Source: Clostridia bacterium (GTDB lineage Bacteria; Bacillota; Clostridia; RGIG6154). Taken from it: DNA of 37,648 bases. Position 1 is the stretch's first letter; every line of letters begins with the position of its first letter. Of the stretch, positions 27,525 through 35,123 are shown one piece after another. Location: the NCBI GenBank assembly GCA_017409875.1, contig JAFQRW010000022.1, positions 72,673 through 110,320 of the forward strand. Direction: 5' to 3'. The notes beneath the pieces were generated by a model. That model had not been told where the DNA came from. It did not search any database and saw only the letters and a program-made list of their open reading frames with translations. The position numbers and the translations under genes were made by a program.

Positions 27525-27793
27525 CGCTATACAGCCCGACTTTGAAAAAGAAATATGTGCGTTTATTAAGGCCTTTGCTCAAACAGAGCTACCTTACATC
27601 ACATCACAGGTTTTACTTATTGCTGCTCGGTTCCCCGCCTGACAAGGTTCGTAAATTGCGATTGTGCAAGACTCTGCTCTCAACACAAAAAACAAAACAA
27701 CAGCCACACATTTCAGTCCCGAGGCCGGGCGTTCACCCTTGCTACAGCGGATTGCAAGTACAGGGCACCGCTACCTCCCCGGTTAGTATAGCT
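27525..27793 (-). ncRNA. ffs: Signal recognition particle RNA, large bacterial type
   Basis: The S-domain motif is plain on the minus strand: CTTGTCAGG, a variable trinucleotide, then GGAACCGAGCAGC, the 4.5S/SRP apical loop. The 5' part (GGGAGGTAGCGGTGCCCTGTACTTGC) is the Alu domain of the large Firmicutes type. The two ends pair: GCTATAC near the 5' end with GTATAGC at 27526-27532, giving a length near 269 nt. A T run at 27508-27520 follows the 3' end. Its place directly upstream of dnaX is conserved in Firmicutes. Confidence 0.9.
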
Positions 27794-28002: not shown

Positions 28003-28094
28003 CTTTTTGCCCTCTTATGGTTCAAGTCCCTCTTAATTTACAAAACAAAAAAGACACCTCAGGGTGTCTTTTTCGTTTTGGTGCGGGCGAAGGG
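28003..28094. repeat. 92-bp direct repeat, copy 1
   Basis: The segment is identical to 28207-28298, 204 bases away. It contains a tRNA-TPsiC-like GGTTCAAGTCC on the plus strand, a GACACC/GGTGTC terminator hairpin with T runs (28053-28068), and the last 16 bases of a tRNA-Leu acceptor (28079-28094, minus strand). The tRNA homology then ends abruptly, so this copy contains no complete gene. Confidence 0.85.
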
Positions 28095-28206: not shown

Positions 28207-28298
28207 CTTTTTGCCCTCTTATGGTTCAAGTCCCTCTTAATTTACAAAACAAAAAAGACACCTCAGGGTGTCTTTTTCGTTTTGGTGCGGGCGAAGGG
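28207..28298. repeat. 92-bp direct repeat, copy 2
   Basis: The second copy of the repeat. Here the acceptor-end homology continues without a break into the tRNA-Leu 3' half, so this copy is probably the original terminator region of the tRNA gene. Its hairpin at 28257-28272 would end the tRNA transcript. Confidence 0.85.
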
Positions 28299-28437: not shown

Positions 28438-28466
28438 TTGATAATATTGGAAAACTATGCTATAAT
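28438..28466 (+). promoter_or_regulatory. Promoter of the leader-RNA/ligase/adhesin operon
   Basis: TTGATA (28438-28443) and the consensus TATAAT (28461-28466) with a 17-base spacer. Transcription would start at about 28473, exactly at the 5' strand of the leader RNA's first stem. Confidence 0.85.
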
Positions 28467-28471
28467 ATTTT

Positions 28472-28608
28472 ACGCTAGACTATACTCACTATAATGGGTG
28501 AAGTATATTTCCTGTTACAAAGTGTACGCTAATAAGGTAAAAGCGTACACTCTGACTAATCATACTTTGTAATGGGAAGTAGTGAGTAAGCGTCTAGCAA
28601 CCTTATCG
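28472..28608 (+). ncRNA. Structured leader RNA with pseudoknot (riboswitch or antiterminator candidate)
   Basis: All pairings are perfect Watson-Crick. P1: 28474-28480 with 28592-28598 and 28483-28489 with 28582-28588. P2: 28509-28512 with 28575-28578 and 28515-28523 with 28564-28572. P3: 28521-28529 with 28543-28551. The P3 loop ATAAGGT (28532-28538) is complementary to ACCTTAT (28600-28606) just past P1, giving a pseudoknot that closes the fold. The 5' P1 strand can also pair with GTGAAGTA at 28497-28504, an alternative hairpin. It does not match any riboswitch class I recognise, including c-di-GMP-I/II, SAM, THF, preQ1 and T-box. Confidence 0.75.
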
Positions 28609-28663
28609 TCAGAGCTTGTATGTTTTTCGTGCGTAGCTCTGAAATATGGGCTACGCATTTTTT
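28609..28663 (+). terminator. Conditional terminator with alternative hairpin
   Basis: TGCGTAGC and GCTACGCA (28630-28637, 28650-28657) followed by six T form an intrinsic terminator ahead of the first gene. TCAGAGC (28609-28615) can instead pair with GCTCTGA (28636-28642), which uses the end of the terminator's 5' arm and its loop. The alternative strand starts three bases after the pseudoknot strand. This is an expression-platform arrangement. Confidence 0.75.
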
Positions 28664-28678
28664 ATGGGAGTACATATT

Positions 28679-30022
28679 ATGAAAAAAGCAATTGATCAAT
28701 ATAAATTACCAAAAACAATCACAGATATTTTTATATACATAATGTTAACTGTATTCATCCTCTGCTGTGGTACAAGTGGATATTCTGGGATGTTTGAATC
28801 TAAATTTAATATATTTTGTTTTACTTGCGGCGGCTATGTGTTTATTACATTATTAATACTATTTGAGTTAATATTAATTGGGCATATTAAATTTGAACCG
28901 ACTAAATTAATAAAAAATATGGGTATTCCTCAAAAATTAGCTATCGTTTATTTGATTTTTACATGGTTATCAGCACTTATATCCCCTTATTTTCCCGACA
29001 CTTTAATTGGGGTCAGTAGATACGAGGGGGCAATAACGATATCAATATATTGTCTTGTTTTTGTTTTGGTTTCATATTTTGGGAAAATAACCAAGCATAT
29101 GATATATGTTTTTTCGGGAACTGTGACTATATTCTCTGTTATATGTATTTTGCAAATACACGGACTAAATCCATTTATGTTTTACCCAGAGGGGTATAAT
29201 TACAATGATGCATACATTGCGTATAATGGTCAATTCCTTGGCACAATTGGAAATACTGATACTGTAGCAGCTTTTTTATGTATTGCAATTCCAATATTAT
29301 GGATGTCTTTAATTCATTTAACTGATAAAAAAAGATTTTTTATTATTTTACCATTGATATTATCTATCTATGTGTTAGTTAAGATGTGGGTGCTTGCCGG
29401 AATTGTCGGCGTAGCTATTGGAACATTACTCTCAATTCCATTCTCTATTAAAATGACTAAAGCACAACGAAAAATTGTTTTGTTGACAACAAGCATTATA
29501 TTTATAGTTGGAATTGTAAGTATATATTTTTCCAAGACAGAAAGTGGTTTGTTTTTTGAAATAAGAGCGTTATTGCATGGAAATTTCGATGATGCATTTG
29601 GTTCTGGTAGAATGTATATTTGGAAAAGTGTATTAAAAGAAATACCCAAAAATCTTTTATTGGGGACAGGTCCGGATACGATGTTAAACACAAATATACA
29701 GCCGTTCATCAGATTTGATACACGACTCGATGCTTCCATTGTTGGGCAAATTGACATTGCTCATAATGAATACATAAATATACTTTTTCATCAGGGAATT
29801 TTTGCTTTTTTGTCATACTGTGCATTAATTGTTTCAGTTGGGTATGGTTGGCTAAAACATGGAAATCGATTTAAATATATAGGAATACTTGGGAGTTCAT
29901 TTATGTGTTATCTCATTCAAGCATTTTTTGGATTTAGTTCCTGTGTGGTAAGCCCACTTTTTTGGATGATAATGGCATTAATAATAAGCAAACGAAATAC
30001 TAAGGAGAATACATATGAATAA
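28679..30022 (+). CDS. O-antigen ligase/Wzy-like membrane protein
   Basis: A 447-residue polytopic membrane protein of the O-antigen ligase/polymerase superfamily (Wzy_C region). About eleven hydrophobic segments are visible. The large external loop carries FGSGRMYIWKSVLKEIPKNLLLGTGPDTML near 307-335 and AHNEYINILFHQGIFAFLSY near 360-378, the arginine- and histidine-containing pattern of these enzymes. Family members transfer lipid-linked glycans to acceptors such as polysaccharide or, in the PglL/O-OTase branch, protein. The ATG at 28679 follows GGGAG and lies 15 bases past the terminator T run. Its last codons overlap the next gene by eight bases (ATGAATAA). Confidence 0.85.
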   Translation: MKKAIDQYKLPKTITDIFIYIMLTVFILCCGTSGYSGMFESKFNIFCFTCGGYVFITLLILFELILIGHIKFEPTKLIKNMGIPQKLAIVYLIFTWLSALISPYFPDTLIGVSRYEGAITISIYCLVFVLVSYFGKITKHMIYVFSGTVTIFSVICILQIHGLNPFMFYPEGYNYNDAYIAYNGQFLGTIGNTDTVAAFLCIAIPILWMSLIHLTDKKRFFIILPLILSIYVLVKMWVLAGIVGVAIGTLLSIPFSIKMTKAQRKIVLLTTSIIFIVGIVSIYFSKTESGLFFEIRALLHGNFDDAFGSGRMYIWKSVLKEIPKNLLLGTGPDTMLNTNIQPFIRFDTRLDASIVGQIDIAHNEYINILFHQGIFAFLSYCALIVSVGYGWLKHGNRFKYIGILGSSFMCYLIQAFFGFSSCVVSPLFWMIMALIISKRNTKENTYE

Positions 30023-33000
30023 AAAACTAATAGCAATTAACATAGTATTAATACTACTAATTTCAATTTTTTCAAACGCAGTATTTGCAGCATCGGGTGT
30101 CGATGGCTCACAAGCAGCTCCTGGAGGTGTGAGTAGGCCAAATGGTGATGGCTCACAAAGTGTGAGTAATAACAGTTGTGGAGATAATGCTACTTGGCAG
30201 CTTGATGACAATGGAACTTTAACTATAAGTGGAACAGGAGACATGTATTCTTATACGCATGTGACACAACCTTGGAAAAACGAGAGAGAAAATATTAAAA
30301 CTGTTGTCATTGCTGATGGCATAACATCAATAAGTGATTGTGCGTTTTATGGTTGCTCAAATTTGATTGCTATAACCATTCCTAACAGTGTTGCTATTGT
30401 TGGCGAGCACGCTTTTCTTGCGTGTACTGGTTTAACAAATATTACATTTCCTGATAGTATAAATGAAATTGGTAAAGGTGCATTTTATCAGTGCAGCAAC
30501 TTAACGGATATTACGCTTTGTAACGGCGTTACAAGTATCGGCGGGCATGCATTTTATGATTGCAATAAATTAGAAAACCTTATTTTGCCTGACACTATTT
30601 GTAGTATAGGAGAATATGCATTTTATAACTGTACCAGTTTAACAAGCATAGATATACCAAATAGCATTACATATCTATCTAATAATATTTTTAACAATTG
30701 TGAAAATTTAGCAGATGTTTCATTGCCTACTAATTTAACAACTATAGGCTATATGGCATTTTGCGATTGTTCAAGTTTAAACAGTATAACTATACCTGAA
30801 GGTGTAACAACCATCGGATTTAGCGCATTTTCTGGTTGTAATAACATAAAGAATATCACAGTCCCAAAGAATGTATCAAGTATTGGCAGATGGGCATTGA
30901 TATGTGGCGAAAACTTAGAATTAATTAATGCTGATGAAAGTAGTCAATATTTTAAATCTATAGATGGTGTTTTATTTAGTAAAGATGGTACAAGAATTGT
31001 ACAATATCCAAGTGGCAGGAGCGGTGATTATACTATACCTACAGGCGTGACAAGAATAGGCATAGGAGCATTCAATGATTGTACCAAGTTGACAAATGTA
31101 ACTATCCCGGATGGTATAACTGACATAGAAATGGCGGCATTTCAGGAATGTACATCTCTAGAAAAAGTAACGCTCCCCGAATCTGCCGTAAATCTGAGTG
31201 AGCAGTTGTTTATGATGTGCACTAATTTGAAAGAAGTAAACATACCAAATGGTGTGACAGCTATCAAGGAAAGAACTTTTAATTCCTGCAAAAGCTTAAC
31301 AGAAGTAAACATCCCCGGCAGCGTAACCAGTATAGGTAGCCGTGCATTTATGGGATGTGATAATTTAATTGATATAACAATACCTGATAGTGTAACAAGC
31401 ATAGGAATGGAAGCATTTAAATCCTGTTGTAATTTAACAAATATTATCATTCCTGATGGTGTAACAAGTATTAGTGATAGCACTTTTAGCGGATGTAGTG
31501 GTTTAACAAATATAAGCATCTCGGATAATGTTCATACCATCGGAAGCAATGCTTTTAAAGATACTTATGTATATGATGATGAGAACTGGGAAGGAAATTT
31601 TTTATACTTTGAAAACTTCTTGATTCAAGCAAAAACCGACATTAGCGGAGAGTGTCATGTTAAGGAAAATACAAAAGGCATTGCAGGTTCTGCTTTTTCA
31701 GAGTGTCGTGCACTGACACACATATATATTCCTGAGAGTGTAACTTCTATCGGCAATAATGCATTTTATAATTGTAACAATCTTACAAGTATAATAATTC
31801 CAGAAGGATTAACTTCCATTGGCGGCGGTGCGTTTTATCAGTGCAGTAGTCTTGAAAATATAACAATACCTGAAGGAATAGCTTCGATTGATAAATCCAC
31901 ATTTTTGGGTTGTGATAATCTAAAAAGCATTACATTACCATCAACGATTAAAACAATAAATGATTATGCGTTCTCAAATTGTGATGCATTAATCGATGTG
32001 TACTATTCTGGCACACAATCACAGTGGAATAAAATTATAATTGCAGAAAATAATGAATATCTTTTAAATTCCAATATACATTTTTTAGGCACTGAGGAAG
32101 TTGAAAAGCATTTGGTCGTTGATGGTGCCGAATTAGATGCAGAAATTAGTCATTCCGGCAGCGGATGGGCATATCAACCCAATCAAAATGGAGGACAGAT
32201 AACTTTAAATGGTTATAACGGTGGTTCGATATATGCAAATTTCAATTTGTATATAGATGTTGCAATAGAAAATGAATCTATTATAAAAGCAGACAGAGAA
32301 TACGGGATATATGTTGAAGGCAATCTCGGTTTTGCAGTATCATCAAACAGAAAAAAGCATTCCAAACTTACAGTTTATGGCAGCAAAAATCACGAGGCAA
32401 TATATGTCACAAAAACATTAGCACCATCGTATGGGATAACTGCAATCGGCAATAATTGCCGTGCAATATACGGAAATCCGATTGACATTTCCAATAACCT
32501 TACCGCTTTTGTCGGAAACAATGCAAATGATGCAGTTATTGGAGAATATGATGAACATCAATATATTAGTATTACTGATAAACACTATCAGTTCTCACTT
32601 ACACTTGATGCAAATGGCGGCAAAGATTCAAACGGAGAATCAACACATAATGTTATATTTAGCTCGGCTACTCCTGCAACATTAAAGTTATTTGATTATA
32701 ATAATTTGTTTGAGAATGGTACTAAAAAACTAATCGGTTGGCAAGATAATAATAAAGATTTCTGCAAATACAATATTTATACATTTGATGCATACGATTT
32801 TGATGAAACTTTATATGCACTCTGGGAAGATGAAGAGCAGAAAGCTGTTTATTTAAATAATTATTATATGCCATATAGTTATGACGATAACATTGAATTA
32901 AATGGTGGAACTGTTATTGAACCTGTAAAAATCAACGAAGATTTTGTTCTTCCTAACATAACAAGACTTGGGTACATTCTTGATGGTTGGTTATCTTCTG

Positions 33001-35123
33001 ATGGCACGCTTTACAAGCAAGGAGATACCATAAAAATAACAGAAACAATTTCATTGACAGCAAAATGGTCAATAAATAAAGATGTTTTAGTCATAGATGG
33101 CAAAGAATATAATGCTAATGAGATATGTCGTGGTATAGGTTGGGATTATCACCCGAATCTAAACTATACATCACAGCGACCACATATCGAGGCACAGTTG
33201 ACCATACACGAAAACTATTCTGGATTGCCTATTGTAATTCCTAAAAATGTTTATATAGGTATAAATGGAAATGTTAAGGCTGACGAATTAAATCCTGCCA
33301 TAACTGTATATGGCGATGTGGATATATCCTTATTTAATCATGCATATGAAACCTTAAATGATATATTGTTGAGGGGATGTGGAGAACAACCAGCAATTAA
33401 AGCCGATGGAGCTGTATATTTAGGAGGAATACACGATAGCAATGATTCGTTTGCAATACATGGAGGCAACGCCGATACTCCTGCAATTATTGCTTCAAAA
33501 GTAGGTTTTTATGATAAGTTTTTCTATATCGGTACAAGCCCTGACAATCTTACAGTCGCGTCAAGTTATACAAATGAACATATACTTAAGTTAGTTCCAA
33601 ATGGAAACATATATTCTATAATGGTATCAAAAGGAGATATAGTTACGACGCCTCCGCAACATAATGACTATATGTTTATTGGTTGGAGAGTAACAAGTGG
33701 ATTAGATTTCGTTCATCCAAATAATACTTTAAAATGGTATATGCCGGGAGATGTTGTAGACATTGACTCGAATAACATAATATTGCAAGCAGCATACTTA
33801 GATAATAACCGTTCCTCGGTTGCCATAGCTCTTCATGGTAATGGTGGTGCGACGGCCGAAGGTTCTAAATATTATATCACTCTAGCTTCTACTGCAAGAT
33901 TATCTCTTTATGATATCCCGGAAAAGTCATTTACAAAAGATGGCTACAGTTTTACTGGGTTCAACACTGCATCTACAGGAAATGGAACTTCTTATACATA
34001 TGGCGATAATCTAAACGATGACGGGGAAACTTTTGTTTATAATTTATATGCACAGTGGAAGAAAAATGAAACCCCATCAAATCCTCCATCAGGTGGTGGC
34101 GGAGGTGGCGGAGCACCATCACCAAGCAAAGAAATAATAAAAAATGATGATGGCTCAACCACAACAATACAAACGGACAAAAAGACCGGAACTGTTATAG
34201 AAGTAACAAAGTATACTGATGGTTCTACAGAAGAAATTGTTACTCAAAAAGATGGTTATACAAAAGTCACCAGAACTGATAATGATGGTAATAAGAATGT
34301 GATAACCAAAAATACAGATGGTTCACAAACTGTTACTACTGTGAAAAAGTCTGGCGTTAAAATGGATGCAACTATTTCTACTAATGGAGAAACAACTGCA
34401 AAAATCTCTATTCCCAAAGGAACAAAGAATGAAGATGTTGTAATCCCTGCCCGGAATCTCACAAGCGGAACTGTTGCTGTGTTGATAAAGGAAAATGGCG
34501 AAGAAGAAATAATTACAAATAGTATTGTTGTTGAAGAAGGTGTTTTAGCCACATTCGAAGGAGATGCAACTGTAAAAATCATAGATAACTCGAAAGAGTT
34601 CCTTGATGTTGAAAACCATTGGGCAAATGATTCTGTTGATTTTGTAACGGCAAGAGGTTTGTTTAATGGAACAAGCGAAAGCGTATTTTCTCCAGACAAA
34701 ACTATGACAAGAGGTATGTTAGCGGTTGTTCTTCACAATTATGAAAGAAACCCAGAATATAGCTATGATGGAAAATTCACAGATGTAATGACGGATAGTT
34801 GGTATGGTGAAGCGGTTGGATGGCTTTCTGACAAAGGTATAGCAGCAGGTTACGAAAATGGTAATTTTGGTGCTGAAGATAGCATAACCCGCGAACAACT
34901 TGCCGTGTTCTTGTATCGATATGCCGGATTGCCCGAACATAGTAGTACAACATCATTTGATGATAATGATAAGATAAGCAACTATGCAATTGATGCAATC
35001 TCATGGGCTACCGAAAATGGTATATTGAACGGCAAGGAAAATAATATGCTCGATCCACAAGGATTTGCAACAAGGGCAGAAGTTGCTACCATGATTTCTC
35101 GATTCGTAAAGAATATTAGGTAG
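30015..35123 (+). CDS. Giant LRR / InlB-repeat / SLH surface protein
   Basis: A 1702-residue exported protein. A signal peptide ends near residue 26. A cap (CGDNATWQLDDNGTLTISGTGDMY) leads into some twenty-five LRR_5/BspA-type leucine-rich repeats to about 690, each with an xxxFxxCxxLxxIxIPxxVxxIG pattern. Then come two modules with a GxGWxYxP motif (about 697-870 and 1020-1260), each followed by InlB/Listeria-Bacteroides repeats (about 875-1018 and 1268-1345). A Pro/Gly linker (PSGGGGGGGAPSPS) and a Thr/Asp-rich region with GSTTTIQTDKKTG-type strands precede three SLH domains at about 1529-1702, which bind secondary cell-wall polymer. It is a probable adhesin; the upstream ligase overlaps it by 8 bases. 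Confidence 0.92.
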   Translation: MNKKLIAINIVLILLISIFSNAVFAASGVDGSQAAPGGVSRPNGDGSQSVSNNSCGDNATWQLDDNGTLTISGTGDMYSYTHVTQPWKNERENIKTVVIADGITSISDCAFYGCSNLIAITIPNSVAIVGEHAFLACTGLTNITFPDSINEIGKGAFYQCSNLTDITLCNGVTSIGGHAFYDCNKLENLILPDTICSIGEYAFYNCTSLTSIDIPNSITYLSNNIFNNCENLADVSLPTNLTTIGYMAFCDCSSLNSITIPEGVTTIGFSAFSGCNNIKNITVPKNVSSIGRWALICGENLELINADESSQYFKSIDGVLFSKDGTRIVQYPSGRSGDYTIPTGVTRIGIGAFNDCTKLTNVTIPDGITDIEMAAFQECTSLEKVTLPESAVNLSEQLFMMCTNLKEVNIPNGVTAIKERTFNSCKSLTEVNIPGSVTSIGSRAFMGCDNLIDITIPDSVTSIGMEAFKSCCNLTNIIIPDGVTSISDSTFSGCSGLTNISISDNVHTIGSNAFKDTYVYDDENWEGNFLYFENFLIQAKTDISGECHVKENTKGIAGSAFSECRALTHIYIPESVTSIGNNAFYNCNNLTSIIIPEGLTSIGGGAFYQCSSLENITIPEGIASIDKSTFLGCDNLKSITLPSTIKTINDYAFSNCDALIDVYYSGTQSQWNKIIIAENNEYLLNSNIHFLGTEEVEKHLVVDGAELDAEISHSGSGWAYQPNQNGGQITLNGYNGGSIYANFNLYIDVAIENESIIKADREYGIYVEGNLGFAVSSNRKKHSKLTVYGSKNHEAIYVTKTLAPSYGITAIGNNCRAIYGNPIDISNNLTAFVGNNANDAVIGEYDEHQYISITDKHYQFSLTLDANGGKDSNGESTHNVIFSSATPATLKLFDYNNLFENGTKKLIGWQDNNKDFCKYNIYTFDAYDFDETLYALWEDEEQKAVYLNNYYMPYSYDDNIELNGGTVIEPVKINEDFVLPNITRLGYILDGWLSSDGTLYKQGDTIKITETISLTAKWSINKDVLVIDGKEYNANEICRGIGWDYHPNLNYTSQRPHIEAQLTIHENYSGLPIVIPKNVYIGINGNVKADELNPAITVYGDVDISLFNHAYETLNDILLRGCGEQPAIKADGAVYLGGIHDSNDSFAIHGGNADTPAIIASKVGFYDKFFYIGTSPDNLTVASSYTNEHILKLVPNGNIYSIMVSKGDIVTTPPQHNDYMFIGWRVTSGLDFVHPNNTLKWYMPGDVVDIDSNNIILQAAYLDNNRSSVAIALHGNGGATAEGSKYYITLASTARLSLYDIPEKSFTKDGYSFTGFNTASTGNGTSYTYGDNLNDDGETFVYNLYAQWKKNETPSNPPSGGGGGGGAPSPSKEIIKNDDGSTTTIQTDKKTGTVIEVTKYTDGSTEEIVTQKDGYTKVTRTDNDGNKNVITKNTDGSQTVTTVKKSGVKMDATISTNGETTAKISIPKGTKNEDVVIPARNLTSGTVAVLIKENGEEEIITNSIVVEEGVLATFEGDATVKIIDNSKEFLDVENHWANDSVDFVTARGLFNGTSESVFSPDKTMTRGMLAVVLHNYERNPEYSYDGKFTDVMTDSWYGEAVGWLSDKGIAAGYENGNFGAEDSITREQLAVFLYRYAGLPEHSSTTSFDDNDKISNYAIDAISWATENGILNGKENNMLDPQGFATRAEVATMISRFVKNIR

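Follow-up and report, generated by a model that had tools for sequence, protein, structure and literature searches.

Judged from sequence comparison, the leader RNA that precedes a surface-protein operon in the 37,648-nucleotide stretch of Clostridia DNA analyzed here (the window) is probably a cis-acting transcription attenuator and one of a new family of multi-copy RNAs, an assessment that covers the switch itself and excludes the nature of the signal to which it responds. The family is widespread and, on the basis of Rfam 15 and open-access papers, apparently undescribed, and a regulatory RNA that is present in about one-fifth of the sampled genomes of the class, in up to 25 copies and without an Rfam entry, is unusual; moreover, it appears to govern which surface proteins these gut bacteria make. 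An initial annotation of this sequence had proposed a pseudoknotted leader that is transcribed from a promoter of its own and ends in a conditional terminator, arguing from the improbability of such complementarity arising by chance in a single sequence. The comparison of 157 homologous copies, which keep the architecture and have covarying stems, supports that proposal on far stronger grounds, although the pseudoknot that is conserved is a different one.

The leader is located between an SRP RNA and a Wzy_C / BspA-LRR/SLH operon, and its layout is that of a transcription attenuator: a leader in front of genes, started by a separate promoter and closed by an intrinsic terminator. Its features and the genes behind it are as follows, in window coordinates.

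28438..28466, plus strand: promoter, with a −35 box TTGATA at 28438-28443, a 17-nt spacer and an extended −10, TG-C-TATAAT (TATAAT at 28461-28466).
28474..28491, plus strand: 5' strand of P1 (GCTAGAC + TACTCACTA), from the sequence and the P1 swap test.
28474-28480/28592-28598 plus 28483-28491/28580-28588 (the latter 9 bp), plus strand: P1 helix, located by script.
28511..28522, plus strand: 5' strand of P2, from the sequence and the P2 swap test (z = −42).
28511-28522/28565-28576, plus strand: P2 helix, 9+4 bp, interrupted, from the sequence and the P2 swap test.
28522..28530, plus strand: strand A, the 5' strand of P3 (GTGTACGCT), from the A:B swap test (z = −11.5) and column covariation.
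28522-28530/28542-28550, plus strand: P3 helix, located by script.
28532..28538, plus strand: P3 loop ATAAGGT, complementary to ACCTTAT at 28600-28606 in the window copy only.
28539..28556, plus strand: strand B (AAAAGCGTACACTCTGAC), the P3 3' strand with CTCTGAC, whose partner is A or A', from the B:A' swap test and column counts.
28565..28576, plus strand: 3' strand of P2, from the P2 swap test.
28580..28598, plus strand: 3' strand of P1, from the P1 swap test.
28608..28627, plus strand: strand A' (GTCAGAGCTTGTATGTTTTT), the pseudoknot partner of B, or the antiterminator 5' arm and U-loop.
28630..28642, plus strand: T5' (TGCGTAGCTCTGA), the terminator 5' arm or antiterminator 3' arm, from the A':T5' swap test.
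28629-28657 (hairpin) and 28658-28663 (U-tract), plus strand: intrinsic terminator, from a terminator scan and stem covariation.
28679..30022, plus strand: first controlled gene, a Wzy_C (O-antigen ligase-like) membrane protein (Pfam PF04932, E = 1.8e-12).
30015..35123, plus strand: second gene, a 1702-aa BspA-type LRR protein with three SLH domains (Pfam LRR_5, SLH).

The promoter is of the sigma-70 type and matches the consensus at 11 of 12 positions, and from its position the 5' end of the RNA corresponds to the first base of P1 or its neighbor. Promoter, P1-P3 and terminator were located by script at the places claimed in the initial annotation, as was the interrupted P2 of 9 plus 4 bp; of the two 7-bp segments attributed to P1, the first has that length and the second has 9 bp. 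A single terminator-like site is present in the 341 bases scanned (0.1 ± 0.2 in shuffled sequences), and the fold of 28438-28670 has a z-score of −5.2 relative to dinucleotide shuffles. The first gene has a Shine-Dalgarno sequence GGGAG at 28666-28670 and an ATG at 28679, and the second overlaps it by 8 nt, the operon spanning 6.5 kb.

Further upstream, the SRP RNA (bacterial large) is on the minus strand at 27527-27791, with a score of 173.5 bits, and lies upstream of a minus-strand dnaX. Just upstream of the leader there is a perfect 92-nt direct repeat (28003-28094 and 28207-28298, 204 nt apart), and in both copies a GACACC/GGTGTC terminator-like hairpin adjoins TTCAAGTCCC. ARAGORN identifies no intact tRNA, and the repeat may be what is left of a tRNA-associated integration or duplication.

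A BLAST search of the leader against its own genome revealed partial matches at two more loci, and a fourth copy was recovered with a covariance model. The homologous loci have a common layout of −10 box, P1, P2, P3, P1 3' strand, CAGAG...TGCGTTTTT, terminator and gene. A covariance model built from nine homologous sequences (R1) identifies the element in all six genomes of the order and, at E ≤ 1e-4, in 88 of the 391 class genomes searched. Per-genome counts saturate in the 391-genome search, because only seven candidates per genome were scored, and fuller counts were obtained with a second model (R2) of 112 copies; these range from four copies in the window's genome through 15 in G001 and G012 and 20-21 in G055 and G238 to 25 in G274. 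A sample of 398 genomes of the phylum contains no match apart from the window's genome; four pattern scans of IMG/VR returned no viral copies, and a check of phage DNA likewise returned no mobile or viral ones. The named carriers, mostly from rumen, caecum and hindgut, are Monoglobus sp., Ca. Avimonoglobus, and Oscillospiraceae and Clostridia bacteria; all are metagenome-assembled genomes, and thus no cultured carrier is identified.

BLAST also revealed a copy with 83% identity to the window leader in G015, a genome from a different family of the class, which suggests recent horizontal transfer; this copy (G015:C50:38208-38401) is close to the end of a contig, and no gene was recognized immediately after it. 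In genus g20, the single-contig genome G152 yields no copy at E ≤ 1e-5 although sister species have 12-25, and the family may have been lost or have diverged in G152. Placement of the promoter is uniform across the family: among 113 copies the −10 box matches at least five of six positions in 109, mostly 3-5 nt before P1, and the −35 box at least four of six in 82. Two units are present at 14 of the 143 loci read (about 10%), and at 12 of these 14 the model match of the second starts 71-178 nt after the first, little above what is needed for the second unit's promoter and P1 5' region. Tandem complete promoter-leader-terminator units, recorded at thirteen loci, are situated mostly ahead of one gene and are sometimes of differing sequence subtypes.

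The pairings were evaluated with 155 of the 157 copies, which could be parsed and were dereplicated to 113, using a swap test that compares, for every copy, the energy of the duplex formed by its own two strands with the energy after exchanging one strand among copies. The test gives z = −36.7 for P1, −42 for P2, −11.5 for P3 (A:B), −15.0 for the B:A' pseudoknot and −13.3 for the A':T5' antiterminator (113 copies each); controls with reversed strands, shifted regions or B with the terminator range from +1.9 to −3.2, except for reversed P1 (−6.4). The conserved pseudoknot is the one in which the P3 3' strand and CTCTGAC pair with GTCAGAG...TATGTTTTT, and not the pairing of the P3 loop ATAAGGT with ACCTTAT that the initial annotation had put forward alongside P1-P3. 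While P1-P3 are borne out by the homologue model and its covariation, the loop complementarity holds in the window copy and fails as a family pseudoknot, scoring no better than controls (z = −2.4 in the family, −1.5 among the 11 closest copies). The antiterminator proposed there, TCAGAGC/GCTCTGA, corresponds to A':T5' and stands, with the terminator stem overlapped in 113 of 113 copies.

Pairing was also counted by columns. Since P3 and the terminator served to fit the model-based alignment, the bias-free counts are those of B:A' and A':T5' only. In the B:A' columns 89.7% of cells are paired, with 149 both-side changes, where shuffling yields 53.6 and sliding the strands no more than 43; in the A':T5' columns 76% are paired, with 49 double changes compared with 26.7 and pair-type counts no better than shuffles, a weaker result that is probably due to the poor alignment of the loop region. 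P3 and terminator columns are 91.4% paired (236 both-side changes versus 68.7 shuffled), and the terminator stem is 99.8% paired with both sides changed in all eight pairs (112 copies). With mean lengths of 18 bp for B:A' and 12.6 bp for A':T5', the two rival pairings have at least 3 nt of A' in common in 113 of 113 copies; the antiterminator, which overlaps the terminator stem in all of them, is conserved and mutually exclusive with the terminator, its column test being weaker than the alignment-free swap test.

Some segments are conserved in sequence as well as in pairing. Invariance reaches 99-100% in the A-run of B and in the U-run of A', amid neighboring pairs that covary, and we infer that these runs act through their sequence, for example in a pause, in a base triple or as a binding site; the U-run has a length of 5-6 in 108 of 113 copies, and T5' begins 0-3 nt later in nearly all. 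The single-stranded bulge CUCUG..CAUAC is also conserved (CATAC in 49 of 113 copies, 1.4 expected). Conservation outside the helices is modest, below that typical of a compact aptamer.

Because A' is complementary to both B and T5', the chain A-B-A'-T5'-T3' has two self-consistent states, and a read-through (ON) state of A:B with A':T5' is predicted to exclude a termination (OFF) state of B:A' with T5':T3'. Folded from +1, the window transcript has a nested optimum of P1-P2-P3 with the antiterminator at −69.0 kcal/mol; with the terminator 3' arm blocked, the antiterminator state is at −67.8 kcal/mol, and with A' blocked, the terminator forms at −65.9 kcal/mol. When A' and B are mutually occupied the remainder is at −58.4, to which B:A' adds about −17 to −21, minus the pseudoknot cost. 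These energies ignore pseudoknot loop costs, and the states are near each other, as expected of a switch. An earlier minimum-free-energy fold that favored the terminator was discarded; it had included untranscribed upstream bases, and from +1 the nested minimum is the antiterminator state.

In the mechanism that we envisage, the promoter sets the start of the RNA at P1, and P1 and P2 together make up a long clamp with the P3 hairpin (A:B) at its closed end. P3 presumably folds first as the RNA emerges, and the invariant U-run of A' may then slow the polymerase such that A' gains time to invade P3. As T5' emerges within 0-3 nt of that U-run, the outcome would be set by whether or not P3 holds, and expression would be set by a signal that either stabilizes P3 with its conserved 3' bulge or opens them. 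The anatomy of the switch has good comparative support, and regulation, and its direction under each condition, are predictions of this reading of the nucleotide sequence, and the strand-exchange pseudoknot makes clear ones that are testable in vitro without culture of the host.

The distance from element to start codon has a median of 21 nt and is within 40 nt for 87 of 125; some elements have no evident gene behind them. Distinct first genes number 115, and the products of 46 of them have 120 aa or fewer. First-gene proteins above that size have a signal- or TM-like N-terminus in 50 of 69 cases by a simple hydropathy rule, versus 9 of 67 in the background set taken from those loci, extending to the family the surface-protein target that had been suggested for the window operon. 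The commonest downstream Pfam families are LRR_5, SLH, Cu_amine_oxidN1, MazE/AbrB-like and YpsA SLOG, and among the small families that recur are a Cys-rich GNGGKDCPGNGE...ECCCDEC protein and an acidic one of 77 aa. The regulon would appear to comprise cell-surface or exported proteins and small accessory proteins, too diverse to indicate a ligand.

Attenuators built of chained hairpins, including the trp leader (1:2/2:3/3:4), the T-box and transcriptional riboswitches, use exclusive pairings between neighbors to decide the formation of an intrinsic terminator. The present family does likewise, but with a five-segment chain in which the anti-antiterminator is a pseudoknot, B being inside the P1/P2 clamp and A' outside it, and it matches no riboswitch or leader in Rfam. 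Neither gathering nor permissive thresholds gave an Rfam 15 match at the element in the window or at 28 homologous loci, in agreement with the initial annotation, which had not recognized a class; a T-box match at locus L164 is a separate element. Searches of open-access papers gave no description of the element, although an unnamed listing elsewhere is possible. A human-microbiome survey reports large sets of unclassified leader RNAs of gut bacteria, with 3161 candidates (PMC8040213), and this family could be among them; the cis-acting section of its main text does not contain the element.

As to the signal, direct binding of a small molecule or ion to the P2-P3 domain, which would make the RNA an orphan riboswitch, is the most likely and has roughly an even chance of being correct. 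Equally balanced is the wider proposal that a new riboswitch class of very large size, or else a sensor of elongation rate that needs no ligand, acts through pseudoknot strand exchange as a genome-wide surface-remodeling regulon, with as many as about 25 autonomous promoter-switch-terminator cassettes in a single genome, among uncultured gut Clostridia. It is possible, but clearly less probable, that the same switch takes its input from an RNA-binding protein that secures P3 or A' in the manner of protein-dependent attenuators: the conserved bulge together with P3 could serve as a protein site and the high copy number per genome resembles a protein regulon, but known antiterminators do not track the RNA. 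The CAT_RBD of BglG/LicT-type antiterminators is found in 0 of 20 RNA-positive genomes and an ANTAR protein in eight of 20, being absent from the other 12, including the window's genome, and both types of control are disfavored by these counts; LoaP scores over the cut-off in 0 of 40 RNA-positive genomes compared with 10 of 36 RNA-negative ones. A ligand-free kinetic attenuator, in which the speed of the polymerase at the A' U-run (as influenced by UTP level, (p)ppGpp or NusA/NusG) picks P3 invasion (OFF) or T5' pairing (ON), is unlikely. It would account for the invariance of the two runs, the regular length of the U-run and its spacing from T5', and the near balance of the two states; however, a base triple or a protein site could be the reason for the invariance instead, and the length variation of P1 and P2 would be unexpected for a precise timer.

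Other readings depart further from a signal-sensing attenuator. The separate promoter, the stable fold, the 5' end enclosed in P1 and the closing terminator, along with the tandem complete units and the elements that lack an evident gene, would suit a trans-acting small RNA of roughly 190 nt whose downstream genes are mere read-through targets, but most elements are just before a start codon, the downstream genes are strongly non-random and the terminator-antiterminator switch is conserved, making this quite improbable. More doubtful still is a processive antitermination RNA (EAR-, LoaP- or put-like) that modifies the polymerase for a long operon, for which the 6.5-kb operon in the window and the analogy drawn in the initial annotation provide the motive. 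Like the eps-associated RNA (EAR) of Bacillus, the window leader precedes a surface-polysaccharide-type operon, but it has no Rfam EAR match, belongs to a multi-copy family with its own terminator switch, and that family controls short as well as long genes, the small first-gene proteins counted above among them; the RNA contains a complete local attenuator. LoaP-dependent leaders resemble it in having a leader hairpin upstream of a terminator in Firmicutes, the LoaP site of the dfn and mln leaders being a UNCG-tetraloop hairpin (PMC12691694), but the lack of LoaP over the cut-off in all 40 RNA-positive genomes runs counter to LoaP-type control.

The c-di-GMP-I and -II riboswitches are present in several copies per Clostridia genome, have surface and motility targets and, in class II, contain a pseudoknot. 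Similarities in copy number, surface targets and pseudoknot notwithstanding, the present family has no Rfam match to them and does not require GGDEF proteins: of 40 RNA-positive genomes, nine lack them, among which are G274 with its 25 copies and G022 with its 12. Gaps in metagenome-assembled genomes could account for some of these absences, but not all, and a c-di-GMP riboswitch of an unrecognized class, c-di-GMP being one of the ligands named in the initial annotation, is disfavored as extremely improbable. Diadenylate cyclase is encoded in 40 of 40 RNA-positive genomes, so that c-di-AMP is a possible input, but the count is uninformative because the enzyme is near-universal, and the Rfam c-di-AMP riboswitch has no match at the element. 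For the orphan riboswitch that we prefer, as for the other inputs, the ligand or trigger, once found, would expose a signal used by a large part of the uncultured gut and rumen microbiota.

A minor association concerns one leader subtype. At eight loci, leaders with a long P1 are followed by genes for YpsA/YspA-type SLOG proteins with a C[CF]xFGHRK-like start, and these are possibly nucleotide-binding proteins tied to the signal.
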